DNA from: Chitinophagaceae bacterium
GTDB taxonomy: Bacteria > Bacteroidota > Bacteroidia > Chitinophagales > Chitinophagaceae
Direction of reading: 5' to 3'
Length of the DNA stretch: 47,616 nucleotides
Assembly (NCBI GenBank): GCA_947456825.1
Contig: CANGTM010000005.1
Location: 1 to 47,616 of the forward strand
Below the pieces are notes generated by a model. It was not told the DNA's origin and searched no databases. It was given only the letters and a program-made list of their open reading frames with translations. A program made the translations under genes and the position numbers. Below are positions 3,817 to 30,492 of this stretch, piece by piece (within the stretch, counting starts at the first letter, position 1; every line of letters starts with the position of its first letter).

Positions 3817-5055
3817 ATGCTGCTTCGACATCTTCCCTTTTTGCGAGCTGTGTTCTGGCATAGCATAACCGCTTTTGGCGGACCGCAAGCCCATTTGGGA
3901 ATGATGCTAAAAACCTTTGTGCAAAAAACTCCCTATGTTACCGAAGAGGAGCTAATGGAGTACAATGCTTTTTGTCAGCTGCTGCCCGGAGCCTCCTCTA
4001 CGCAAACCCTTGCCCTGATCGGATACAAAAGAGGTGGGGTGCTTTTGGCCTCACTCACCCTTTTAATCTGGATCTTACCGGCGAGCATACTTATGGGTGC
4101 CCTTTCGTTTTTGCTGGTCGGTCTCGAAGATCATCCTCAACTATCGGCGATCTTTCGGTTTATCCCTCCCATGGCGGCCGGGTTTTTAGGATTTGCCATA
4201 CTCAGGATCTTTCCACTATCCATTAAAAATCCGATCACATGGGTCATAATGCTGGTAAGTGCCGCAGCCACCGGTCTATTATTTGGTAGACCCTGGCTGG
4301 TGCCGTTACTGATCGTCGCAGGCGGAATTGCCACCAACTTTAGTATTAAAAGGATTCCGCAAGAGGCCGACAAACCCAAGGCTGTGCGCTGGTGGAACTT
4401 TTGGTTGTTTGGAATCATTTTTATTGCTGCAGGATTACTGAGCGAAGCGGCCAGAACAAACAACTGGAACGAGCGAAAGCCCATCAATCTTTTTGAGAAC
4501 ACGTATCGAATGGGAAGTTTCGTTTTCGGAGGAGGACAAGTGTTGTTGCCAATGATGTACGAGCAGTGGAGTGTTCGACCAAACAACGTAAAAGAAAATA
4601 ATCCCAATGCCATTAAGATCGATCAAGATAAATTATACACAGGTATGGGTATTGTGCAGGCGGTGCCGGGTCCGGTTTTTTCGTTTGCTTCCTTTACGGG
4701 CGGATTGGCATTAAAAGACCAGGGCCCCTCTATGCAGTTGTTGGGCTGTTTGATCGGTACCGTTGCCATTTTTTTACCAAGCGCCCTATTGGTACTTTTC
4801 TTTTTTCCAGTTTGGAACAACCTAAAAAAATATGCTGTCGTCTATCGGTCGCTCGAGGGAATCAATGCGGCCGTTGTTGGAATCATGATCGCCTCTACGC
4901 TTTATATCTCGCGCGACATCTCTCTTATAGATGGAAATGTTATCAGTAGTCTCAATTTGTTCGTGATCGTAGCGACCCTATTGTTGTTACGATTCACTAA
5001 GGTTTTTTCGGCGCTGATCGTCGTGCTTTGTCTGGCGCTGGGCTACTTCTTATAA
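3817..5055 (+). CDS. chrA: Chromate transporter family protein (two CHR domains)
   Basis: A 412-residue inner-membrane protein of the CHR family. Both homologous halves are present in one chain. The N-terminal half has [11 protein letters not shown] followed by [13 protein letters not shown]; the C-terminal half has [17 protein letters not shown] followed by [19 protein letters not shown]. The length matches long-chain ChrA proteins. The family exports chromate in characterised members, but many homologues are untested, so the substrate is inferred. The ATG at 3817 follows an AT-rich stretch. The last 13 bp overlap the 3' end of the leftward nadD gene. No chrB-type regulator is next to it. 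Confidence 0.9.
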
Positions 5056-5615
5056 TAGCCGCCTCTTTCAATTTCTTCTATCACCGCTTCGGGTAACATA
5101 TAGCGAATGGATTTTCCTTGCGCAATACAAGCTCGTATATACGTAGAAGAAAGTTGAAGTAATGGCGCATCGATCATCGTGGCTTTTGCGCCAAGCGGAT
5201 TAAGGGTATCATACCCTGGGCGAGGATATACCAGAATTTCATACTCCTTGATGAGGGATTGATAGTTTTTCCAGCGAGATAGATTTTGAAAACTATCGGC
5301 GCCCATAATAACGCAAAACTCGTGTTGCGGATATTTTTCTTTTAAATACAATAACGTGTCGATGGTGTACGAGGGCTTCGGCAGCGCAAACTCTATATCA
5401 GAGGGTTTGATACGTGTATCATGCTCGGTGGCTAGTGTGGCCAGGTGTAGTCGGTGGTATTCATTGAGCAGCGTGTTCTCTTTTTTCAGCGGATTTTGGG
5501 GTGATACCACCAGCCAGACCTTTTCGACATCGGTTTCGTTCAAGATATAGTTGGCAACGATCAGGTGCCCGTTGTGGATGGGGTTAAAGGAACCGAAATA
5601 AAGCCCGATTTTCAT
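5043..5615 (-). CDS. nadD: Nicotinate-nucleotide adenylyltransferase
   Basis: NadD transfers AMP from ATP to nicotinate mononucleotide, giving deamido-NAD in the NAD synthesis pathway. The 190-residue protein begins with the nucleotidyltransferase signature [10 protein letters not shown] (residues 8-17) and carries the C-terminal [15 protein letters not shown] motif (ISSTxIR type) expected for this family. The length is normal. It lies 16 bp downstream of feoA in the same direction and is probably read from the feoA promoter. It ends against the convergent chrA gene. The NAD gene nadA is also in this window, at 15.2 kb, but is not linked. Confidence 0.95.
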
Positions 5616-5631
5616 TATATTTTGTTGAAAA

Positions 5632-5862
5632 TCAATTGTTTAGCTCGATAAGAATGGCGTCTGCCTCATTTAACCTAAGACTCAAATGATACCCCGAAAC
5701 TGACACAGAAAGCGGATCTCCCAGCGGAGCTATCTGCTCTACCAAAATAGTTTCTCCGGGTACACAGCCCATTTCCATCAATTTTAAAAAAATCTCATTG
5801 TTCTGAAACTCTTTTATTACTCCTGCCTGGCCTGGCTTTAACTCAGATAGACGAAGAACCAT
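5632..5862 (-). CDS. feoA: FeoA, small ferrous-iron transport protein
   Basis: A 76-residue protein with an SH3-like FeoA fold. It shows the usual pattern LSELKPGQAGVI at the N terminus, the central LKLMEMGCVPGETI segment and a C-terminal beta strand ending in IELNN. FeoA is thought to support or regulate FeoB at the cytoplasmic membrane face. Here it stands alone before nadD, about 4 kb from the feoB gene end and on the opposite strand, which is not the usual feoA-feoB operon. A good promoter element (TAGCTTTG) lies 18 bp upstream. Whether the feoB gene also has its own feoA partner before the window cannot be seen. Confidence 0.9.
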   Translation of the reverse strand: MVLRLSELKPGQAGVIKEFQNNEIFLKLMEMGCVPGETILVEQIAPLGDPLSVSVSGYHLSLRLNEADAILIELNN

Positions 5863-5880
5863 GTTCTACATATTATTTTG

Positions 5881-5888
5881 CAAAGCTA
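5881..5888 (-). promoter_or_regulatory. -7 promoter element of feoA-nadD
   Basis: On the minus strand this reads TAGCTTTG, an exact match to the Bacteroidota -7 consensus TAnnTTTG, ending 18 bp before the feoA ATG. No convincing -33 TTG was found at the expected distance. Confidence 0.6.
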
Positions 5889-5924
5889 CCCTTGTTAGGT
5901 GGTATTTCTTTACGATTTTTGAGA

Positions 5925-6359
5925 ATGATCCGTTCAGAATCAAAAGTTTATTTCTTTTTCGAAAAAAAGGGCTTCTCGCTAGAAAACAGGAGCGTGCTTA
6001 AGAATTTCATTTGCTCGTTGTTTAAAAAGGAAAAGACCGCCCTGGAGTCCATTAACTACATCTTTTGCTCCGACAAAAAGCTACTTGAGATCAATAAAAC
6101 CTATCTAAAGCACGACTTTTATACAGATATCATCAGCTTTGACCTATCGCCGGGTCCCCAAAAGGTGGCCGAGATCTATATTAGTATAGATCGCGTGCGC
6201 GAAAACGCCAAAGAACTAGGCGTTTCTTTTAAGAACGAATTACACCGGGTTATTTTTCACGGTGCCCTGCATATTTGTGGTTACAAAGACAAAAACAAGA
6301 AAGATCGGGAGACTATGCGTGCTAAGGAAAATATATACCTATCAGCATTTGGGGCTTAA
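5925..6359 (+). CDS. ybeY: YbeY endoribonuclease / rRNA maturation factor
   Basis: A 144-residue YbeY (UPF0054) protein, a metal-dependent RNase for 16S rRNA 3' end maturation and ribosome quality control. The start is set at ATG 5925 (MIRSESKVYFFF); the frame also opens upstream at a TTG, but that extension is not family-like. The conserved core is seen: NKTYLKHDFYTDIISFDLS, and the metal motif HGALHICGYKDKNKKDRE with two His. The third ligand position is replaced by K/D-rich sequence, as I recall is common in Bacteroidota homologues. It is divergent from feoA and upstream of the first parS site. Confidence 0.92.
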   Translation: MIRSESKVYFFFEKKGFSLENRSVLKNFICSLFKKEKTALESINYIFCSDKKLLEINKTYLKHDFYTDIISFDLSPGPQKVAEIYISIDRVRENAKELGVSFKNELHRVIFHGALHICGYKDKNKKDRETMRAKENIYLSAFGA

Positions 6360-6389
6360 TTGATTAAGTGCCTCCCATATACCCCTTTT

Positions 6390-6405
6390 TGTTCCACGTG
6401 AAACC
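6390..6405. promoter_or_regulatory. parS-like ParB binding site 1
   Basis: The 16-mer TGTTCCACGTGAAACC differs at one base from the known parS consensus TGTTNCACGTGAAACA. It lies between ybeY and the VOC gene, outside coding sequence. A second, better site lies 462 bp downstream. ParB/Spo0J binds such sites near the replication origin to organise and segregate chromosomes. Confidence 0.8.
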
Positions 6406-6423
6406 TTTTAATCGAAAATCAAG

Positions 6424-6822
6424 ATGTCGAGACGGGCTTTTTTTCAAATCACACTTCTTGTCAGAGACTATGACGAGGCAATTGATTTTTACACTAAAAC
6501 ATTAGATTTTAAGCTTTTAGGAGACACTAAGCTCACAGATACCAAGCGTTGGGTGGTGGTGGCTCCCCCAGGGGGTACGGGAGGACAACTTTTACTTGCA
6601 AAAGCCACCGGAGAGGCCCAAATTAATCGAATTGGAGATCAAACAGGAGGGCGTGTATTTCTGTTTATGCATACCGACAACCTGCAAGAAGATCTTGTGC
6701 GCCTCAAAAAGCATGGGGTTAAAATTGTAAGGGGTCCTGTAAAAGAGACTTTTGGGGATGTTTTGGTATTTGAAGACCTGTATGGGAACCTTTGGGATTT
6801 GATCGAAAAGAACAACATCTAA
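6424..6822 (+). CDS. VOC family (glyoxalase/bleomycin resistance-like) protein
   Basis: A 132-residue protein of the vicinal oxygen chelate superfamily. It has the two beta-alpha-beta-beta-beta modules: FFQITLLVRDYDEAIDFYTK starts the first, and the second runs through VFLFMHTDNLQEDLVRLKKH to VFEDLYGNLWDLIE, whose Glu/Asp residues are typical of the metal-site strand. The exact substrate cannot be called: members include glyoxalases, dioxygenases and antibiotic-binding proteins, and here it is not next to a pathway. It sits between two parS sites and upstream of mnmG. The ATG at 6424 is the only good start. Confidence 0.85.
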   Translation: MSRRAFFQITLLVRDYDEAIDFYTKTLDFKLLGDTKLTDTKRWVVVAPPGGTGGQLLLAKATGEAQINRIGDQTGGRVFLFMHTDNLQEDLVRLKKHGVKIVRGPVKETFGDVLVFEDLYGNLWDLIEKNNI

Positions 6823-6851
6823 AAGAGAGCCCCCGCAATTACTATTGGAGT

Positions 6852-6867
6852 AGTTTCACGTGAAACA
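6852..6867. promoter_or_regulatory. parS-like ParB binding site 2
   Basis: The 16-mer AGTTTCACGTGAAACA contains a perfect 14-base palindrome, GTTTCACGTGAAAC, and differs from canonical TGTTTCACGTGAAACA only at the first base. It lies in the intergenic region 5' of mnmG. With the first site it brackets the VOC gene. Confidence 0.9.
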
Positions 6868-6910
6868 ACTATTTTGGCCCATAATTCCCGGATTTGCTCT
6901 CAATTACCGC

Positions 6911-6944
6911 CTGGCTAATTCAAAATCAGCCAAATTAGGGCCAG
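6911..6944. repeat. Inverted repeat in the mnmG promoter region
   Basis: CTGGCTAATT (6911-6920) faces AATTA-gg-GCCAG (6933-6944), a ten-base inverted repeat interrupted by two bases. An alternative smaller stem TGGCT/AGCCA also forms. It ends about 18 bp before the mnmG -7 element, where RNA polymerase or a regulator would contact. Function is unknown. Confidence 0.35.
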
Positions 6945-6962
6945 CTATCTAATCCATAACTA

Positions 6963-6970
6963 TATCTTTG
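6963..6970 (+). promoter_or_regulatory. -7 promoter element of mnmG
   Basis: TATCTTTG matches the TAnnTTTG consensus exactly. Its last base is only 6 bp before the mnmG ATG, so the transcript would start at or almost at the start codon. Confidence 0.6.
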
Positions 6971-6976
6971 CAGCGC

Positions 6977-8839
6977 ATGTTCAAAGAATACGATGTGATT
7001 GTGGTGGGGGCCGGCCACGCCGGTTGCGAAGCAGCGGCCGCTGCGGCCAATATGGGCTCCTCTACCTTGCTGATTACCATGAATATGCAAACTATTGCCC
7101 AGATGAGCTGCAACCCCGCCATGGGTGGCATTGCTAAGGGTCAAATTGTAAGGGAGATCGACGCCCTTGGCGGCTATTCGGGGATTGTAACAGACCTTTC
7201 GACCATTCAATTCAGAATGCTTAACCGCAGTAAGGGCCCCGCTATGTGGAGCCCGCGTGCGCAGAATGACCGCATGCTTTTTCATCTTAAATGGAGGGAA
7301 ATGCTTGAGAACACCCATGGTCTTGACTTTTATCAAGACATGGTGGTGGGTCTGCTGCTAAAAGGCTCTGTCTGTTACGGCGTAAAAACAGGCCTGGGGC
7401 ATGAAATAAAAGCAAAATCGGTCGTTTTAACGAATGGCACCTTTTTAAACGGTATCGTTCACATTGGTGAAAAGAACTTTGGTGGGGGCAGGATGGCAGA
7501 AAAGGCGGCTACCGGAATAACAGAACAGCTTGTAAATCATGGGTTTGAAAGCGACAGGCTTAAAACAGGCACCCCTCCCCGCATTGATGGCAGAAGCCTT
7601 GATTACACAAAGATGGAGGAGCAACCCGGCGATGAATTGGTTTCGGGATTCTCCTATACTAACACCCCAAAGCCGACCCAGCAGAGAAGTTGTTGGATCG
7701 CATATACTAATGGAGAGGTGCACGAAACCCTAAAGTCTGGCTTTGACAGGAGCCCTATGTTCGCTGGTAGAATTGATGGGGTTGGTCCTCGCTATTGCCC
7801 CAGCATAGAAGACAAAATAAACCGTTTTGCCGAAAGAGATCGACACCAACTCTTTGTGGAACCGGAGGGATGGAATACGGTAGAAATTTATGTGAACGGA
7901 TTTTCAACTTCACTTCCGGAAGAAGTTCAGTACGATGCCCTTCGTAAAATATCTGGTTTTGAAAACGTTAAAATGTTCAGGCCGGGTTATGCGATAGAAT
8001 ATGACTTTTTTCCTCCAACCCAGCTAGACTATTCGCTTGAAACAAAAATAATAAAGCATCTTTTTTTTGCTGGGCAGATCAATGGAACAACCGGATACGA
8101 AGAAGCAGCCTGTCAGGGCCTGATGGCCGGTATCAACGCCCACCTGGCTGCTAAAGGCCGAGAGCCGGTTGTCTTAAAAAGGAGTGAGGCCTACATTGGC
8201 GTGCTTATCGACGACCTTATCAGTAAGGGAACACAAGAACCTTATCGCATGTTTACGTCGAGAGCAGAATTCAGAACCTTACTTCGACAAGACAATGCTG
8301 ACTTGCGTTTAACAGAACTAAGCTATGGCTGGGGTCTGGCAACTTCGGAAAGAAACGACACCGTAAAAGAAAAGAAAAAAGAAGTAGAAGAAATAAAAAA
8401 ACTACTCGCCACTCTTTCGCTAGAACCGCAAGAAGTAAACGGTTGGCTTGCCTCGCTGAACGCGGCGCCAATACCAGAAAAACAAAAGGCTCAAAAGATC
8501 TTGTTGCGTCCCGATGTATCATTACAAGATTTTGCGCGCGCCGTAGAGAAGGTGGGGGGCGCTCTAGAAAAATTTGGAGCGGAAAGTATCGAGCAGGCTT
8601 CCATACAAATTAAGTACGAGGTGTACATAGAAAAAGAGCGGGAGCTGGTGCAACGAATGGCACAATTAGAAGAACTTGAAATTCCTGCCAGTTTCGATTA
8701 TCAAAAACTTTCATCGCTTGGAAACGAAGCCCGCGAGAAGCTAATAAAAATAAAACCTCGAACCCTGGGACAGGCTAGCCGTATTTCGGGCATCAACCCT
8801 AGTGATGTACAGATATTAATGGTCTACATGGGGCGCTGA
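6977..8839 (+). CDS. mnmG: MnmG (GidA) tRNA uridine 5-carboxymethylaminomethyl modification enzyme
   Basis: The FAD-dependent subunit of the MnmEG complex, which modifies the wobble uridine of several tRNAs. The 620-residue protein has the dinucleotide-binding motif GAGHAGCE (residues 11-18), the family signature MSCNPAMGGIAKGQIVREID, RKISG-type segments, and the C-terminal helical domain ending near RISGINPSDVQILMVYM. The length is typical. The ATG at 6977 is used; an in-frame TTG nine bases earlier lies inside the -7 element and is rejected. In many bacteria mnmG lies near the replication origin, in keeping with the parS sites just upstream. It ends 10 bp from the convergent ATP-grasp-SET gene. 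Confidence 0.97.
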   Translation: MFKEYDVIVVGAGHAGCEAAAAAANMGSSTLLITMNMQTIAQMSCNPAMGGIAKGQIVREIDALGGYSGIVTDLSTIQFRMLNRSKGPAMWSPRAQNDRMLFHLKWREMLENTHGLDFYQDMVVGLLLKGSVCYGVKTGLGHEIKAKSVVLTNGTFLNGIVHIGEKNFGGGRMAEKAATGITEQLVNHGFESDRLKTGTPPRIDGRSLDYTKMEEQPGDELVSGFSYTNTPKPTQQRSCWIAYTNGEVHETLKSGFDRSPMFAGRIDGVGPRYCPSIEDKINRFAERDRHQLFVEPEGWNTVEIYVNGFSTSLPEEVQYDALRKISGFENVKMFRPGYAIEYDFFPPTQLDYSLETKIIKHLFFAGQINGTTGYEEAACQGLMAGINAHLAAKGREPVVLKRSEAYIGVLIDDLISKGTQEPYRMFTSRAEFRTLLRQDNADLRLTELSYGWGLATSERNDTVKEKKKEVEEIKKLLATLSLEPQEVNGWLASLNAAPIPEKQKAQKILLRPDVSLQDFARAVEKVGGALEKFGAESIEQASIQIKYEVYIEKERELVQRMAQLEELEIPASFDYQKLSSLGNEAREKLIKIKPRTLGQASRISGINPSDVQILMVYMGR

Positions 8840-8849
8840 CCCCTTCTAC

Positions 8850-10280
8850 CTATTTTTTTCTTAACTGCTGCTCTCTTTTTGTAAGCGTGTTTCCTTCGGG
8901 TCCGCTGATGGTGCCGCGGCAATGCGCGCTTCCGCACTTACAGTCAAAAGGTTCCATGCGGGGGTCCAGAAAAGTTGCATAATCGAGCGTTAGCTCCTCG
9001 TGTTGAAAAATCGCACGTGTGGTACACACGTTCAAGCCGTTAAAGGCTGTATTTGCAGAGCAGCTGTGGTTTTGAGGTGCCCACGAGGTAGGGTCCTCGT
9101 CCCAAAGCGCAAAAACCTCTTCGCTCAATGGGTAGGCGTAACGGCGAAACTGTAATTGCTGGTGTGGATTCCAATGGTTGTCGATATAGCGTTTGGTGAC
9201 CAACCGTTGTGCTCGTTCTTCTCCGAAATAAATGGTTTCGCCAGCTGCCAAGTCTCTTGCCGCATAAATTCCGTATCCCGCAATAGAATCTCCTTTAACG
9301 TAGAAAGATTTTTGTTTACGCTGGTAACGGGCAATACCCTCATTGATGATCTGTTCTAAAAACCCTCGCTTGCCGGCAGGATCATACTTTAAGATATAAT
9401 CGGCGGAGCCCTCATAGCCGTCTTCATAAAAAACAGAGCAGGTGAAATTCATCTCTAAAAAATAAACCTCTCCGCTTTTGTTAACCCTAAAATCTAATCG
9501 GCCATATCCGATACAGCCACCTGATATAAAAATTTTTTCGCTTGCCTCGCGGAGGGCCCGTTCGAGAGATGGGTCGTTACAGGGAATGTTAGCGGTGGGG
9601 TGAAGCGCCGAAGTCTTTAGTGCGTATGTTTTAAAGGAATCACCTTCGGGAAAAATATACTCTACAGGCTTATACGTAACACAAGTTCCGGGGGTGGGCC
9701 CTGCAGATACCAACACAGTGAACTCGCGACCCTCGATATACTCCTCTACCAACACCTGGTCGAATTCGAAAAGCAACTCCCTACATTTTTTTTCTAACTC
9801 TTCTTTGTTGTGTGCAAGGGAGTCTCGGCTAATACCCAAACTATCTCCGGCGTGGGCCGGCTTAATAAAAAGAGGAAATCGAAGCGCAGAACAACCATTT
9901 TCGATATCTGAAAAACTGGTAACGATCCTGTAGGCGGGTGTAAGCACTCCTTCGCAAAACGAAACGTATTTCATTACCTCTTTAGGAAAATCATAAACGC
10001 GCGACGTGGGGCCGGTAAAAGGAAGGTTGAGTGTTTCAAGCGCATAGATCACGTCTATTCCCGGAACTTCCCAATCGGCATATCCCTCGCAGAGGTTCAC
10101 AAAAATGTCATACTTCTTTTTTGCAAGAGATCGTAATTGCTTATGGGTGGTCAGTTTATTCAAAAAAACATGGTCAACCGTGGCTTGAGGTAAAAGCGCT
10201 GAAAGGTTGCGGGGCGGATCGTAGTTTTTATAATCCACCCCGGTTGTAGAATAATCGGGTTGCAACACACACACTTTCAC
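8850..10280 (-). CDS. Fused ATP-grasp (D-Ala-D-Ala ligase-like) and SET-domain protein
   Basis: A 476-residue two-domain protein. Residues 1-320 form an ATP-grasp ligase of the D-Ala-D-Ala ligase type: FIKPAHAGDSLGI with Lys140, EEYIEGREF with Glu180, and the metal-binding strands RLDFR (Asp263) and LEMN (Glu276, Asn278). Residues 325-460 form a SET domain: GDSIAGYGIYAARDL at the S-adenosylmethionine site, NHSC (404-407), TLDY with the likely catalytic Tyr434, and a post-SET Cys cluster CKCGSAHCRG (Cys447, 449, 454). Families therefore suggest ATP-dependent peptide bond formation plus lysine methylation in one chain; substrates are unknown. The start is GTG, overlapping the upstream ATP-grasp stop as TAGTG. 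It is the last gene of the cassette. It is not a normal Ddl, which carries no SET domain. Confidence 0.9.
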   Translation of the reverse strand: MKVCVLQPDYSTTGVDYKNYDPPRNLSALLPQATVDHVFLNKLTTHKQLRSLAKKKYDIFVNLCEGYADWEVPGIDVIYALETLNLPFTGPTSRVYDFPKEVMKYVSFCEGVLTPAYRIVTSFSDIENGCSALRFPLFIKPAHAGDSLGISRDSLAHNKEELEKKCRELLFEFDQVLVEEYIEGREFTVLVSAGPTPGTCVTYKPVEYIFPEGDSFKTYALKTSALHPTANIPCNDPSLERALREASEKIFISGGCIGYGRLDFRVNKSGEVYFLEMNFTCSVFYEDGYEGSADYILKYDPAGKRGFLEQIINEGIARYQRKQKSFYVKGDSIAGYGIYAARDLAAGETIYFGEERAQRLVTKRYIDNHWNPHQQLQFRRYAYPLSEEVFALWDEDPTSWAPQNHSCSANTAFNGLNVCTTRAIFQHEELTLDYATFLDPRMEPFDCKCGSAHCRGTISGPEGNTLTKREQQLRKK

Positions 10281-11416
10281 TAGACTGCTTTTGCTTTTTT
10301 GATGTTGTGCGACCGTGGTGTCTCCGCTCTGGTTATAGCGTCGAATAAAATGGCCTCGATCACTTTGCTGTATTTGATCTTTGAGGCCTTGATGATAGCA
10401 CCGATGGATGTATAGTTTTCGTCTTCACTAAGTCCGCACTGTGCATTTGCCTCTAGCACATAGAGTATGCCCGTGTCCTCATCTTGTCTTATGTCTATCC
10501 TTGTGTACCCCTTTCCGCCGAGTGCTACATAGGCTTCGAGGCTAAGTTTTTGTAGTTTTTTTCGTAGCGCCGCGGCAACGGGACCGTACTCGTAAAAATT
10601 TTCGTTTTGGGGCATTGGGCTCTCGTCCTCGTAAATTTCCCAAAGACGATCGAACGACAAAAACCGTTCGTTGTCGGGTAATGAGGGATGAAAAAGTCTT
10701 TCAACCGGTTCGTATACATGGCAACGATCAAGATGAGTAGAAGAGCCGGTAATAAAAGTGGTAAACTCGGGACCCTTTATATATTTCTCTACAAAAAGCC
10801 CGTCGGCCAGCAGATTCCAACCCCTATAGCCTTCTGCCAGCTCTTTTACCCGGTGTTGCAATTCGGCCTCGTTGTTAACCACATTCTTCACTGAAACACC
10901 CATGCTACCGCCAGATACCGCAGGTTTAATGATCATGGGGGTGCCCACTGCTGAGCAGACCCCTTTTAAAGAAGAGGGTCGACCACTGACCAGCTTCCAG
11001 GGGGCTGTTGAAACACCCGCCTTGTCAAAAGCCCTCTTCATGGGTATTTTTGAGGTGGTGATGGTATAAAAGTTTTGATCAGATCCGGTGTAGACCAGGC
11101 CGGCCTCTTGTAGGGCATCTATAACCGAAACGCCGGGAACGCCATTTACTTCATCTCCGTCGCAAAGATTAAGCACCAGGGGGGTGTATCCGTTTTGGGT
11201 TTTTGCAATTCGGGCAATCGTAGAACGGATGTTTTTTAGTGTAATTGGTGTCCAGGTCCAACCAATACCAAGCTCAGCAAAAACAACCTTATACTCTTGA
11301 ATACTATGTGTAAAGTCGTAGTAGTGTGAAAGGTTGGGGTCGTTTGTTTCAAGTTCGGGGGCTAAAACCCAAATGTGATACCCAGACAGATTGGGGGTGG
11401 GGGTGATGCGCTTCAT
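10280..11416 (-). CDS. Stand-alone ATP-grasp ligase, D-Ala-D-Ala ligase-like
   Basis: A 378-residue ATP-grasp protein distantly like D-Ala-D-Ala ligase. Visible motifs are LNLCDGDEVNGVPGV (like the Ddl N-terminal region), GLVYTGSD, the ATP lysine loop MIIKPAVSGGSMGVSV (Lys164), FVEKYIKGPEFT (Glu210), and the metal strands TRIDIR (Asp308) and LEANAQCG (Glu322, Asn324). It should couple ATP hydrolysis to amide bond formation through an acyl phosphate; substrates are unknown. It lies between the small SET gene (4 bp gap) and the ATP-grasp-SET fusion (1 bp overlap), so translation is probably coupled. It is not surrounded by mur genes, which argues against a peptidoglycan Ddl role. Confidence 0.88.
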   Translation of the reverse strand: MKRITPTPNLSGYHIWVLAPELETNDPNLSHYYDFTHSIQEYKVVFAELGIGWTWTPITLKNIRSTIARIAKTQNGYTPLVLNLCDGDEVNGVPGVSVIDALQEAGLVYTGSDQNFYTITTSKIPMKRAFDKAGVSTAPWKLVSGRPSSLKGVCSAVGTPMIIKPAVSGGSMGVSVKNVVNNEAELQHRVKELAEGYRGWNLLADGLFVEKYIKGPEFTTFITGSSTHLDRCHVYEPVERLFHPSLPDNERFLSFDRLWEIYEDESPMPQNENFYEYGPVAAALRKKLQKLSLEAYVALGGKGYTRIDIRQDEDTGILYVLEANAQCGLSEDENYTSIGAIIKASKIKYSKVIEAILFDAITRAETPRSHNIKKAKAV

Positions 11417-11420
11417 GCGG

Positions 11421-11927
11421 TCAGGCCACTTTTTTTCTGGCTTTTCTGGTGAGGCGCTGCACGATGTAATCGGTGAAACGATAGTGTGCTACTTGCTCGC
11501 GATTTAGAAATGCGGCCCCTTTTATCTCTCCGATACAAGAGGGGGTTCCGCAAAAACAGCGAAACGGCTGTTGCATCTCCCACTCTGTCGATGGATAAAA
11601 AAATCCAAGTTCCTCCCCATCGGCAATATCGGCCAGGGCAATTATTTTCATAGAGCTCGTATCAAAAAAACAATTCGGCTCGCAGCTGTGATTTATATAT
11701 TGTAAATAGGGGGGCTGCAACATGATGTGCTTGTTGGTTCCCACTTGCACGGTTAAATAGGTGGGGGTAGAAGAGATGCTGCCGGAAGCGAATGAAGCGA
11801 TCTCCTCTCCTTTTTTAAAAGCACGCTTGGTAAAAAAACAAAACTGTTGATTGCTTTCGTTCACTCTGGTTTCTGCAAAACCGTGGTCGGCTACCGTGCG
11901 GTAGCTCGTTGTGGTGGGGGCTGTCAT
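11421..11927 (-). CDS. Small SET-domain protein (lysine methyltransferase-like)
   Basis: A 168-residue protein made of little more than a SET domain with a post-SET Cys cluster. Seen are INHSCEPNCFF (NHSC at 79-82), DGEELGFFY with the likely catalytic Tyr111, and CFCGTPSC (Cys124, 126, 131), which with Cys82 could bind zinc. The basic C terminus (RLTRKARKKVA) might contact an acidic partner. SET enzymes transfer methyl groups from S-adenosylmethionine to lysines; the target here is unknown. It is first in the cassette, 84 bp after the DUF2480 gene. A TATCTTTC element at 11945-11952 (minus) is one base off the -7 consensus and could start the cassette transcript. Confidence 0.88.
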   Translation of the reverse strand: MTAPTTTSYRTVADHGFAETRVNESNQQFCFFTKRAFKKGEEIASFASGSISSTPTYLTVQVGTNKHIMLQPPYLQYINHSCEPNCFFDTSSMKIIALADIADGEELGFFYPSTEWEMQQPFRCFCGTPSCIGEIKGAAFLNREQVAHYRFTDYIVQRLTRKARKKVA

Positions 11928-12011
11928 GGGTTAGTAATCTATAGGAAAGATAGACAGCGATCTTCTAGTTTTACTCGTTGCTATAACAATGTGAATAAGT
12001 CAACAATAACC

Positions 12012-12521
12012 TTAGCGGGGTTTTTTATAGACCGGCACCGTACTGCAGGGCTCGCCATACATCAAGGTCTTTACAACAGGAAGCAATCTTTTGGTTATGG
12101 CCATGTAGGCAAACTCACCAATGGGGGTATCTCCACACCCCTTTACGATGACCCGTTGGTCTTGGTAAGGAGAAAGGTCGGCCGATTCGATATTGCTTAA
12201 AAAAAGATGCTTTACCAGCTCTTGTTCCGATCCAACATACGCTTCGGAGCAAACCGGTTGCAGGTAGCTGGCGACCAACATATAAGCCCAAACAGGGATA
12301 ATGGCGTCCACAGAGCAGGTAACAGCAACGGCCTTGTCTTTATATACTGCCCAATCTGTTTGCTTAAGGGATTCTCGAAACTCCTTTTCCTTTACGATCA
12401 TCCCCATAAACAAGTGGTCCTTTATGTCGAACCGGGCAATAGATTGCTTAGGATACCACTGCTCGAGGTCTAGTGAAATAAGACCGCTTTCTGCAACCTT
12501 GTTGACAATCCCGTCGGCCAT
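12012..12521 (-). CDS. DUF2480 family protein
   Basis: A 169-residue cytoplasmic protein (no signal peptide or membrane segment) of the DUF2480 family, which is common in Bacteroidota and of unknown function. Recognisable stretches are LISLDLEQWYP, FDIKDHLFMGMIVKEKEFRE, DAIIPVWAYMLVAS and VIVKGCGDTPIGEFAYMAITK. It starts 10 bp after the stop of the PpiD-like gene and is probably in its operon. The downstream SET gene is 84 bp away, so a link to the ATP-grasp/SET cassette is possible but unproven. Confidence 0.8.
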   Translation of the reverse strand: MADGIVNKVAESGLISLDLEQWYPKQSIARFDIKDHLFMGMIVKEKEFRESLKQTDWAVYKDKAVAVTCSVDAIIPVWAYMLVASYLQPVCSEAYVGSEQELVKHLFLSNIESADLSPYQDQRVIVKGCGDTPIGEFAYMAITKRLLPVVKTLMYGEPCSTVPVYKKPR

Positions 12522-28576: not shown

Positions 28577-30463
28577 TTACCAACCAATCCCATAATCTTC
28601 TCCATGATTGCTGGATCCGCCCCATAGCGTTCCATTCTTCCAATCAAAAAAGATCGCATTGATGGGCCCCGAAGTACGGTCATCAAAACTGAGCGTATAG
28701 CCCATTTTGATAAGTGCGTTTCGCACAGACTCGGGCGTTTTGTCGTGCAGTAAAATATTGCCGGGCTTAGGTTTTCTGTCTTTTATCTTGTTGCCCCCCA
28801 GCGACAACCAGAGTTGATTACTGTTAATATTGGCCGCTTCGCAGGCTTGTTGAACCGTCATATTGAATTCGACCATATTCAAAAAAAACTGCAGCAGGTT
28901 TTGATCTTGTGTATCGCCACCTTGTACAGCAAACGAAAGAAAGGGCTTTCCGTCTTTAAGCGCGAGCGAAGGGGTAAGTGTAACACGCGGTCTTTTTCCG
29001 GGCGCAATCACATTGAAAGGGTTGATCGTAGAGTCTAAAACAAAGCTTTGTAGTCGCTGACTCATTCCAACCCCGGTATTCCCCGCAATGGCTGCCGGAA
29101 TCCAACCACCACTGGGGGTAATAGACACGATCCAACCCTCTTTATCGGCTGCTTCTACCGTAGTTGTGCCACGCCATAGCCGGTCTTGATATTCGATATT
29201 TGCTATGGCAATAGCTCCGCTATCGTGAGCGGGAACGAAATTGCGTCCGGTGCTATCGCTACGATCAAAAGCTCGTTTCTTCAACAATTCCGTAAATGGA
29301 TTTTGTTCTTGTTGAAAAGGATAGGGGTCTCCGGGCTCGATTGATCTATCATTTCCGGCGCTACTCAGTTGTGCAGCTCGCAGCTTTGCGTAGTCTTTAC
29401 TCAATAACCCCCGCATGGGCTCGGCCGGGGCTACTAATGGATCGCCGTAATAAAAATCACGATCGGCAAAGGCCATGCTCATAGCTTGATAAACCGTATG
29501 GATATATGCTGTACTGTTATATCCCATCTTTTTAAGATCGAAATTTTCTAAGATGTTGAGCGCTTGCAGTAGAGCGGGGCCCTGTGTCCATTGTTGTAAT
29601 TTATATACCTCTACTCCCTTGTAATTGACCATGAGCGGTTCTTCCCAGCGGGGTTTCCAATTGGCCAGATCACTTTTGGTAATCAACCCACCTTGCTCTT
29701 GGCATCCTCTTACAAATTCATCGGCAATATCTCCTTTATAAAACCGATCGTAAGCGGCCATGATCGCTTCTTTTCTTGAGGCCCCTTTCTTTAATGCCGT
29801 TTGTTCACTTTCTATCATTTTGGTGAGCGTCTTAAGCAGATCCTGCTGAATAAAGATCTCTCCTGCTTGCGGAGCTTCTCTAGACTCACCCAAATGTGGA
29901 AGCAATACCTTTTTACTGTAGGGCCATTCTTTAATTCGCTGTTTATTTCTTTCGATACTGTTGGCTGTTTGAGCATCGATAGGGTAGCCAGCTGCTAAGT
30001 CCAAGGCCGGAGCAAGTACCTCTTTTAAACTTTTAGTACCATACTCGGCCAGCATATAGCAGATGCCGCCGGGCGTTCCGGGCGTTGTTGCCGCCAAGGG
30101 TCCGTACTCGGGAGGAAACTCATACCCCTTTGCTTTAAAAAACTCAACAGTCGCCCCCGAAGGTGCAATGCCCATCGCGTTTAATGCAATTACTTTTTTT
30201 GTTTTGGGATTATAAAGCAACGCCTGTGTTTCACCGCCCCAACTAAGTACATCCCACATGGTACAGGTAGCCGCCAACATAGCGCAGGCTGCATCTACCG
30301 CATTACCACCTTGCTGAAAAAGCGTCGCCCCTGCAGTAGCCGCTAACGGTTTTCCGGTAATGGCCATCCAGTTTTTGGCATGCAGCGGCGGTTTTTGTGT
30401 TTGTTGTGCTAGTGCAGTACAGGCTGTTGCACAAAGCGTACAGAGGATTAAAAATTTTTTCAT
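28577..30463 (-). CDS. Gamma-glutamyltransferase family protein
   Basis: A 628-residue exported enzyme of the Ntn-hydrolase gamma-glutamyltransferase family, which cleaves gamma-glutamyl bonds such as that of glutathione. The ATG at 30463 is followed by a signal peptide (MKKFLILCTLCATACTALAQ). The large-subunit motif GGNAVDAACAM is clear. The autoprocessing site is GTTTVEAADKEG: the nucleophile Thr (about residue 433) is kept, but the usual TTHxSVVD pattern is changed. Further family sequence is NPFNVIAPGKRPRVTLTPSL. It may act on another acylated substrate. The promoter element TACATTTG lies 21 bp upstream; the divergent NamZ-like gene begins only 54 bp away. Confidence 0.92.
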   Translation of the reverse strand: MKKFLILCTLCATACTALAQQTQKPPLHAKNWMAITGKPLAATAGATLFQQGGNAVDAACAMLAATCTMWDVLSWGGETQALLYNPKTKKVIALNAMGIAPSGATVEFFKAKGYEFPPEYGPLAATTPGTPGGICYMLAEYGTKSLKEVLAPALDLAAGYPIDAQTANSIERNKQRIKEWPYSKKVLLPHLGESREAPQAGEIFIQQDLLKTLTKMIESEQTALKKGASRKEAIMAAYDRFYKGDIADEFVRGCQEQGGLITKSDLANWKPRWEEPLMVNYKGVEVYKLQQWTQGPALLQALNILENFDLKKMGYNSTAYIHTVYQAMSMAFADRDFYYGDPLVAPAEPMRGLLSKDYAKLRAAQLSSAGNDRSIEPGDPYPFQQEQNPFTELLKKRAFDRSDSTGRNFVPAHDSGAIAIANIEYQDRLWRGTTTVEAADKEGWIVSITPSGGWIPAAIAGNTGVGMSQRLQSFVLDSTINPFNVIAPGKRPRVTLTPSLALKDGKPFLSFAVQGGDTQDQNLLQFFLNMVEFNMTVQQACEAANINSNQLWLSLGGNKIKDRKPKPGNILLHDKTPESVRNALIKMGYTLSFDDRTSGPINAIFFDWKNGTLWGGSSNHGEDYGIGW

Positions 30464-30484
30464 CGTCTTTATCTTATCTATATT

Positions 30485-30492
30485 CAAATGTA
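30485..30492 (-). promoter_or_regulatory. -7 promoter element of the gamma-glutamyltransferase gene
   Basis: Minus-strand TACATTTG, an exact TAnnTTTG match, 21 bp before the ATG, in the 54-bp gap shared with the divergent DUF1343 gene. Confidence 0.6.

Follow-up and report, generated by a model that had tools for sequence, protein, structure and literature searches.

Known systems related to the cassette

The subject of this study is a three-gene cassette in a stretch of 47,616 nucleotides (hereafter the window; contig CANGTM010000005.1 of the Chitinophagaceae bacterium assembly GCA_947456825.1), comprising genes for a small SET-domain protein, for an ATP-grasp ligase and for a protein in which an ATP-grasp ligase is fused to a second SET domain. 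Most characterised SET enzymes are protein-lysine methyltransferases. In the synthesis of N-acetylglutaminylglutamine amide, a small peptide-like metabolite, a ligase is fused to a GNAT acetyltransferase, and the cassette fusion may work alike, as a ligase coupled to a group-transfer domain, with SET in the place of GNAT.

Among solved proteins, BurB comes closest to the small SET protein in sequence, in profile and in fold. It is a protein which according to the accessible part of its report (PMC12542666; PDB 9l4t and 9l4v) is a methionine S-methyltransferase converting free methionine to S-methylmethionine in the biosynthesis of dimethylsulfoniopropionate (DMSP) and malleicyprol. Both are small stand-alone bacterial SET proteins of about 170 amino acids (aa); identity in the fold matches is 26–29%, and a substrate like that of BurB can only be presumed for the cassette enzyme. 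The only published pairing of SET-like and ATP-grasp-like domains found in the literature searched (largely without subscription papers) is TTLL12, described in the accessible part of its report (PMC3520985) as a human pseudo-enzyme which carries SET-like and TTL/ATP-grasp-like domains, lacks critical residues and has no activity in vitro. It resembles the cassette fusion in holding both kinds of domain in one protein, but its SET-like part is N-terminal and nearest to SETD3/4/6 and its ligase is of the TTL type, while the cassette fusion has intact motifs and the reversed domain order. No ATP-grasp/SET pairing in bacteria was described in the literature searched, and a term search of a review of bacterial SET proteins (PMC3980110) for “ligase” or “fusion” gave nothing; an initial annotation of this DNA had likewise known of no characterised pathway that pairs the two, and these results agree with it, the pseudo-enzyme TTLL12 excepted. 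Each kind of component is known, and neither the cassette nor a SET-ligase fusion with intact motifs was found in that literature. We regard the cassette as a candidate for ATP-grasp peptide-ligase biosynthesis with unusual tailoring.

Organisation and conservation of the cassette

All three genes lie on the minus strand and were delimited from their open reading frames (ORFs), Pfam matches and alignments, the fusion with the help of a structural model as well. The small SET protein (168 aa) is encoded at 11421..11927, the D-Ala-D-Ala ligase (Ddl)-like ATP-grasp ligase (378 aa, with an NLCDG and EANAQC signature) at 10280..11416, and the fusion (476 aa, GTG start) at 8850..10280. A 4-bp gap (11417..11420) separates the SET gene from the ligase gene, and the TAG that ends the ligase gene has one base in common with the GTG that begins the fusion gene (10280..10280). 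Coordinates, gap and 1-bp TAGTG overlap are all as first annotated. The GTG start is supported by the relatives, whose alignments begin at that same residue. Within the fusion, the ATP-grasp part spans about residues 1–322 (9315..10280, estimated boundaries; NLCEG and EMNFTC) and the SET part about residues 323–462 (8895..9314; NHSC, Tyr434, Cys447/449/454).

A scan with the fusion alignment over 84,980 species, one genome per species, gave at least 578 relatives, from which the best 80 loci were retained. Sixty of these 80 hold SET, ligase and fusion complete and in order. Both the co-translation deemed very likely in the initial annotation and the conservation of order that it proposed to check in related genomes are supported. 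In 17 loci the ligase-fusion pair has no visible SET gene, 6 of them beginning at a contig start and 11 lacking an adjacent SET; the other three have a fusion without adjacent ligase (L140), an overlap of the ligase with the fusion frame in the absence of a SET (L149), and about 1 kb between ligase and fusion (L174). Intergenic gaps among the 80 are mostly short, overlaps of 4 and 1 bp included. Among the near relatives, read by eye (L004–L033, our own locus counted), the ligase is the gene immediately ahead of the fusion, in the same orientation, in 30 of 30 and the SET gene precedes the ligase in 29, the remaining locus (L016) being truncated by a contig end inside the ligase. For L011 the SET match is no more than partial and weak (E 1.7e-9); its genome (G003) has no SET match at 1e-12. 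The SET-ligase-fusion arrangement has not come about by chance.

The 80 loci are labelled mainly as Chitinophagaceae and the genera Sediminibacterium, Ferruginibacter, Terrimonas and Hydrotalea, or as unplaced Bacteroidetes, with a few from Cyclobacteriaceae, Saprospiraceae or Lewinella; named strains with the cassette include Sediminibacterium goheungense DSM 28323, S. soli and Terrimonas species. The nearest named relative is labelled Chitinophagaceae, and the next two Sphingomonadales, a label mismatched to their near-identical gene neighbourhood. The cassette genes are under purifying selection: against the nearest relative (L096), the ratio of nonsynonymous to synonymous substitution rates is 0.038 for the SET gene, 0.039 for the ligase and 0.059 for the fusion, similar to the control genes mnmG (0.043) and DUF2480 (0.062) in the same comparison. 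Either sequencing error or decay may account for a ligase broken into two frames (272 + 112 aa) in one metagenome-assembled genome (MAG; L100), and for the single stop within each of two fusion matches (G051:C1:57366-58769 and G303:C31:40112-41521). In the window, a DUF2480 gene lies upstream of the cassette and a convergent mnmG gene on its other side; the host genome is a draft assembly of 1.82 Mb.

Co-inheritance of the parts

In an even draw of 395 genomes from the phylum, the fusion occurs in 17, and a close small SET (E at most 1e-20) was found in 15 of these 17 compared with 1 of the 378 genomes without fusion (Fisher p 4e-24, kinship ignored). Two fusion genomes, G302 and G430, gave no close small SET. 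The dedicated ligase (358 bits or more) is present in 6 of the 17 and in none of the 12 further genomes tested. SET genes in general are far commoner in this sample (177/395), and the window’s own genome has a third one on another contig; the cassette is therefore a special subset. Among 34 genomes labelled as the same or the window’s own genus (G000–G033), counted by hand, SET matches at 1e-12 were found in 26 of the 28 with a fusion or a fragment of it and in none of the 6 others, one of which (G014) proved to hold a fusion remnant.

Thirteen genomes have a fusion locus without adjacent SET and at least 749 bp of upstream sequence (the 11 above, L140 and L149). A close small SET lies elsewhere in 8 of them (E at most 1.1e-53; one has an in-frame stop), and a SET profile matched in 12, in 4 of those 12 through the fusion itself only. 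In the genome of L140, SET and ligase are together, apart from a fusion followed by the membrane-protein gene c7 (described below), and G303 shows the same split between SET-ligase and fusion. The small SET gene is able to move away from the ligase-fusion pair. The initial annotation had held that independent occurrence of the genes in related genomes would speak against a joint function, and they largely do not occur independently, given the 60 complete loci and the split loci that often keep the missing part elsewhere; the exceptions are G302 and G430 and two sets of genomes, lacking the ligase or the small SET, which are weighed below. A small SET relative (34% identical, E 7.6e-22) was also seen in a genome without fusion (L083:8071-8520, minus strand; G350:C25), adjoining a gene that clusters with the window gene at 28577-30487, gamma-glutamyltransferase-like by reading.

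The two SET domains

Both SET domains exceed the gathering cut-off (22.4 bits) of the Pfam SET family (PF00856), the small protein with 48 bits (1.9e-12) and the fusion with 29.3 bits (1.2e-06). In SET domains, NHxC is the S-adenosylmethionine (SAM) motif and a tyrosine is catalytic. The corresponding N79-H80-x-C82 and Tyr111 of the small SET, together with Cys124/126/131 of the post-SET type, are invariant in 16 aligned rows, and the fusion SET likewise retains the SAM motif, the catalytic tyrosine and the post-SET cysteines. The model of the small SET has a predicted local distance difference test (pLDDT) score of 93.6; that of the fusion is weaker in its SET part, where 12 of the 13 ten-residue blocks from residue 351 on have a mean pLDDT of 42 to 79.

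BurB is the top match of the small SET among solved proteins in a phmmer search (53 bits, the next 32) and in a profile search (72 bits, the next 40), takes ranks 1–3 in Foldseek, and leads in VIA-align with Z 14.6 (root-mean-square deviation (rmsd) 3.5, 129 aligned) compared with 11.4 for the next protein (rmsd 2.5, 120 aligned). By manual count in the phmmer alignment, Tyr124 of BurB falls on the invariant Tyr111, with S-x-E next in both proteins. In the accessible part of the BurB report, changing Tyr124 to Ala nearly abolishes activity, while changing it to Phe does not (PMC12542666). The assumption of the initial annotation that the SET domains methylate lysines is accordingly not specifically supported, since BurB, the solved protein closest to the small SET, S-methylates free methionine. 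Genes of the BurI/BurD/BurE type for the DMSP route (decarboxylase, aminotransferase, aldehyde dehydrogenase) were not found among the window neighbours tested (mnmG, DUF2480, a SurA/PPIase-type gene and nadA), nor were DMSP-route genes seen by eye in the 28 neighbour families that recur most often in 79 loci; in a single locus (L133) the fusion is followed by an aminotransferase-like gene.

In a tree of SET domains, the 16 small SETs and the 12 fusion SETs form two separate groups (support 100/99 and 100/100), in a set of rows which does not include BurB itself and in which long rows make deeper placements unsure. A recent duplication of one SET domain into the other was considered and rejected on the basis of these two separately supported groups.

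Relatives of the small SET on plasmids were found in 9 records, and the five inspected sit in surroundings unlike the cassette. The Eleftheria gene lies in a bur-like polyketide synthase cluster, that of Tabrizicola near genes named for a GHMP kinase, a pyridoxal phosphate enzyme and alanine racemase, that of Sphingomonas near a gene named diaminopimelate decarboxylase, and that of Rhizobium (L186) near a SAM decarboxylase and an asparagine-synthase-related gene; the Streptomyces record has no such clear link to amino-acid enzymes. The kinship with BurB and the plasmid SETs among amino-acid enzymes favour a small substrate without proving it, and methionine as the substrate is only a lead. Another SET gene, outside the small-SET and fusion-SET clades, encodes a 617-aa protein with SET fused ahead of a SAM decarboxylase and a spermidine synthase (L080:8465-10318, minus strand; G294:C65), and adjoins the gene of a second SET protein (L080:6989-8440, minus strand) whose C-terminal part is ATP-grasp-like by reading, with no Pfam match beyond SET; this is a further case of SET linked with small-molecule enzymes.

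The two ATP-grasp ligases

The two ligases match the Pfam family Dala_Dala_lig_C (PF07478) above curated cut-offs, the fusion with 74.1 bits (1.4e-20) and the stand-alone ligase with 59 bits (6.2e-16), compared with a gathering cut-off of 24. As first annotated, both are ATP-grasp enzymes, and both retain the residues for ATP and Mg: the RxD and ExN ligands are invariant in 12 fusion rows and 16 ligase rows, and K164, E210, E217, R306, D308, E322 and N324 of the ligase are invariant in its 16 rows. Ddl enzymes are the closest sequences of both and the closest folds of the fusion.

The best named families of both are D-alanine--D-alanine ligases, yet the scores reach only about a third of the cut-offs, with 82.5 (fusion) and 79 bits (ligase) vs 245.65 for TIGR01205 and 80.9 and 89.7 bits vs 243 for NF002378, so that neither protein belongs to these families by score. 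The Ddl active-site residues are Glu15, Ser150 and Tyr216 in E. coli DdlB numbering. In HMMER alignments read by eye, Ser150 corresponds to Gly in the ligase and to Asp (8/12), Ala (2) or Ser (2) in the fusion rows; Tyr216 corresponds to Thr (8) or Trp (4) in the fusion rows and falls at the alignment edge in the ligase; the Glu15 position falls outside the alignments of both. All sequences passing length and score limits (73/73 ligases and 79/79 fusions, 152/152 together) carry a cysteine signature, N[LIV]C[DE][GA] with ExNxxC, while three Ddl-like plasmid relatives have NLAEG, NLAEG and NLAAG with ExNxxP, in which Pro replaces the second Cys. The two cassette ligases therefore look like sisters of one cysteine-marked subfamily, and judging from the layout of Ddl both cysteines would lie at the active site. 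The cassette ligases thus share with the Ddl/VanA group the ATP-grasp fold and the ATP/Mg residues, and differ from it in scoring below the family cut-offs, in the Ser150 position, in the Tyr216 position of the fusion rows and in having ExNxxC in place of the ExNxxP loop.

In a plasmid search, the fusion gave 37 matching records, all of them short of 80% cover; the features named beneath the 30 matches listed were single ligase-type genes or none, and the three records inspected had no SET gene annotated alongside. In one other genome (G302:C3, locus L079), the genes beside the fusion (4041-7872 and 10294-12099, minus strand) include one that is ATP-grasp-like, one for a MATCAP-family protein and one resembling N-formylglutamate amidohydrolase, while a gamma-glutamyltransferase-like gene lies on the far side; the names other than MATCAP were read from sequence.

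Exporter genes and the Chlorobiaceae-like version

In 37 of the 80 loci the fusion is followed, in the same orientation, by a gene for a membrane protein of 289–357 aa, c7. One of these 37 overlaps the frame of the fusion owing to an ORF that was called over-long, and the 80 include loci ending soon after the fusion. Two examples hit PF13748 (ABC_membrane_3) with 148 bits and lack an ATPase domain, from which c7 is predicted to be a stand-alone membrane domain of an ATP-binding cassette (ABC) exporter, and it is often the fourth gene of the cassette. It is found in 20 of 97 relatives, 19 of them with a fusion and the 20th (G014) with a fusion remnant. In that genome two unrelated genes, apparently an insertion, stand between c7 and the 3' remnant of the fusion at the contig end (L189:8248-12139; G014:C1).

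Two loci (L076 and L077) have the order SET, fusion, complete ABC exporter and second short SET. The exporter of L076 resembles peptide- and lipid-exporter families and scores below their cut-offs. We tentatively call this version Chlorobiaceae-like, as L076, from a genome of 2.5 Mb, also has bchD and bchI above cut-off and the phylum is taken to include Chlorobia. Since this version has no separate ligase, the fusion may serve as the sole bond-forming enzyme of a cassette, which suggests that the dedicated ligase, where present, extends or changes the product. Near the Chlorobiaceae-like cassette there is also a retron Eco8-effector-like gene (L076:13693-15450, minus strand; 52 bits, with a cut-off of 250).

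Apart from c7 (37), the recurring neighbours in 79 loci (named by eye or by window homologue) are a helicase-like gene (36), mnmG (29, on the opposite strand), ybeY (24), a single-strand-binding-protein-like gene (23) and nadD (21), which are taken as reflecting a shared chromosomal position. The 28 commonest neighbour families include no other enzyme tied to a biosynthetic pathway of the kind proposed below.

Proposed function and alternatives

Two ligases of the free-amino-acid type, two SAM methyltransferases and, in many relatives, an exporter point to a short, non-ribosomal, methylated and amide-linked metabolite, as do the lack of an adjacent precursor peptide and of any other recurring pathway enzyme among the commonest neighbours. 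We give an even chance to the reading that the cassette is a small non-ribosomal unit which ligates amino acids and methylates the product, with export in many lineages. The two Ddl-like enzymes would use ATP to convert amino-acid-like substrates to acyl phosphates, from which they would make one or two amide bonds. The stand-alone SET would transfer a methyl group from SAM onto a free amino acid or the growing conjugate, as BurB does on methionine, and the fusion SET would add a second methyl group to what the ligase domain of the same protein delivers. Export in many lineages would then run through an ABC system, either c7 or the complete exporter of the Chlorobiaceae-like version. The analysis establishes the order and co-occurrence of the genes, their purifying selection, the retained catalytic motifs and the link to exporters in relatives; the substrates, the order of steps, the numbers of bonds and methyl groups and the fate of the product are all proposed here on indirect grounds. 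In a more specific version, possible though doubtful, the small SET would produce a sulfonium such as S-methylmethionine or else an N-methylated amino acid, and the ligase and the fusion would build this into a remethylated short peptide for secretion by the dedicated ABC exporter.

Several observations weigh against this metabolite. The window’s genome has no c7 match at E 1e-20, so that here the product would stay inside or leave by another pump. Eleven of the 80 loci carry ligase and fusion with no SET alongside, a small SET is missing altogether from 5 of the 13 genomes searched for one (all MAG or bin records), and the dedicated ligase is absent from all 9 Chlorobiaceae-like (f38) genomes having the fusion. 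The fusion SET is nearly tied between BurB (54 bits) and KMT2D (52 bits), the bur-like Eleftheria SET falls outside the small-SET clade in the tree without BurB, and neither sequence nor fold reveals whether a SET domain acts on a small molecule or on a protein.

Whichever probability remains is shared among protein modification, polyamine chemistry, ribosomal peptides, housekeeping and alternatives that we did not foresee. The initial annotation left the choice between a secreted metabolite and a protein tag. The former is favoured by the exporter neighbours, and the tag, for which no positive evidence was obtained, we consider unlikely. In that scheme the ligases would load a protein, or a group bound to one, with amino acids, and the SETs would methylate a nearby lysine. 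Such a role would suit the predominance of lysine methyltransferases among characterised SETs, the name given to 8 of the 9 plasmid relatives and the matches of the small SET to histone methyltransferases (KMT-type SETs) as well, and TTLL12, which pairs its two domains within a protein-modifying family as far as the accessible part of its report goes. However, BurB, the nearest solved relative, acts on free methionine, both ligases resemble free-amino-acid ligases, exporter genes are linked, and the 28 commonest neighbour families, read by eye, show no dedicated acceptor protein. Polyamine or amino-acid amide metabolism, with ligases joining amino acids to a polyamine and SETs methylating an amine, is brought to mind by the SET-SpeD-SpeE fusion of L080 and by the SET relative of L186 beside its asparagine-synthase-related and SAM decarboxylase genes. 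Those SETs, however, lie outside the two cassette clades and no polyamine gene was noticed by eye among the same families, which makes this quite improbable.

Spare D-Ala-D-Ala ligases beside unrelated SET genes, as ordinary wall or housekeeping enzymes brought together by coincidence, could explain why the best named families of both ligases and the best folds of the fusion are Ddl. We hold this very improbable, as the TIGR01205 scores are far below cut-off, the Ddl active-site residues are altered, a separate strong Ddl candidate is present in the same genome (G000:C4, PF07478 8.7e-47), and the cassette is patchily distributed with its parts inherited jointly; the preference of the initial annotation for a metabolite over a housekeeping role is supported here. 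Still slighter is the chance of a graspetide-like ribosomally synthesised and post-translationally modified peptide, in which the ATP-grasp enzymes cyclise and the SETs methylate a genome-encoded precursor. ATP-grasp ligases do form graspetide linkages, according to the accessible part of PMC8939145, but those of the cassette are of the Ddl type and there is little space for a gene inside it. Moreover, among 456 small intergenic ORFs (18–75 aa, within 600 bp) around the 80 loci no family recurred in more than 6, and no precursor-peptide gene was thus found beside the cassette, a distant one not having been sought.

If the more specific version above, with its secreted and remethylated short peptide, holds, a SET-ligase fusion enzyme would be the maker of a class of metabolites spread over Chitinophagaceae and Chlorobiaceae-like bacteria. 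The cassette is short and present in named strains, which makes the question directly testable. Bacterial SET proteins are routinely named “protein-lysine N-methyltransferase”, as the plasmid relatives illustrate. The SETs described here, linked and in one case fused to amino-acid-type ligases and often accompanied by exporters, suggest that part of the family serves small-molecule biosynthesis, as BurB does.

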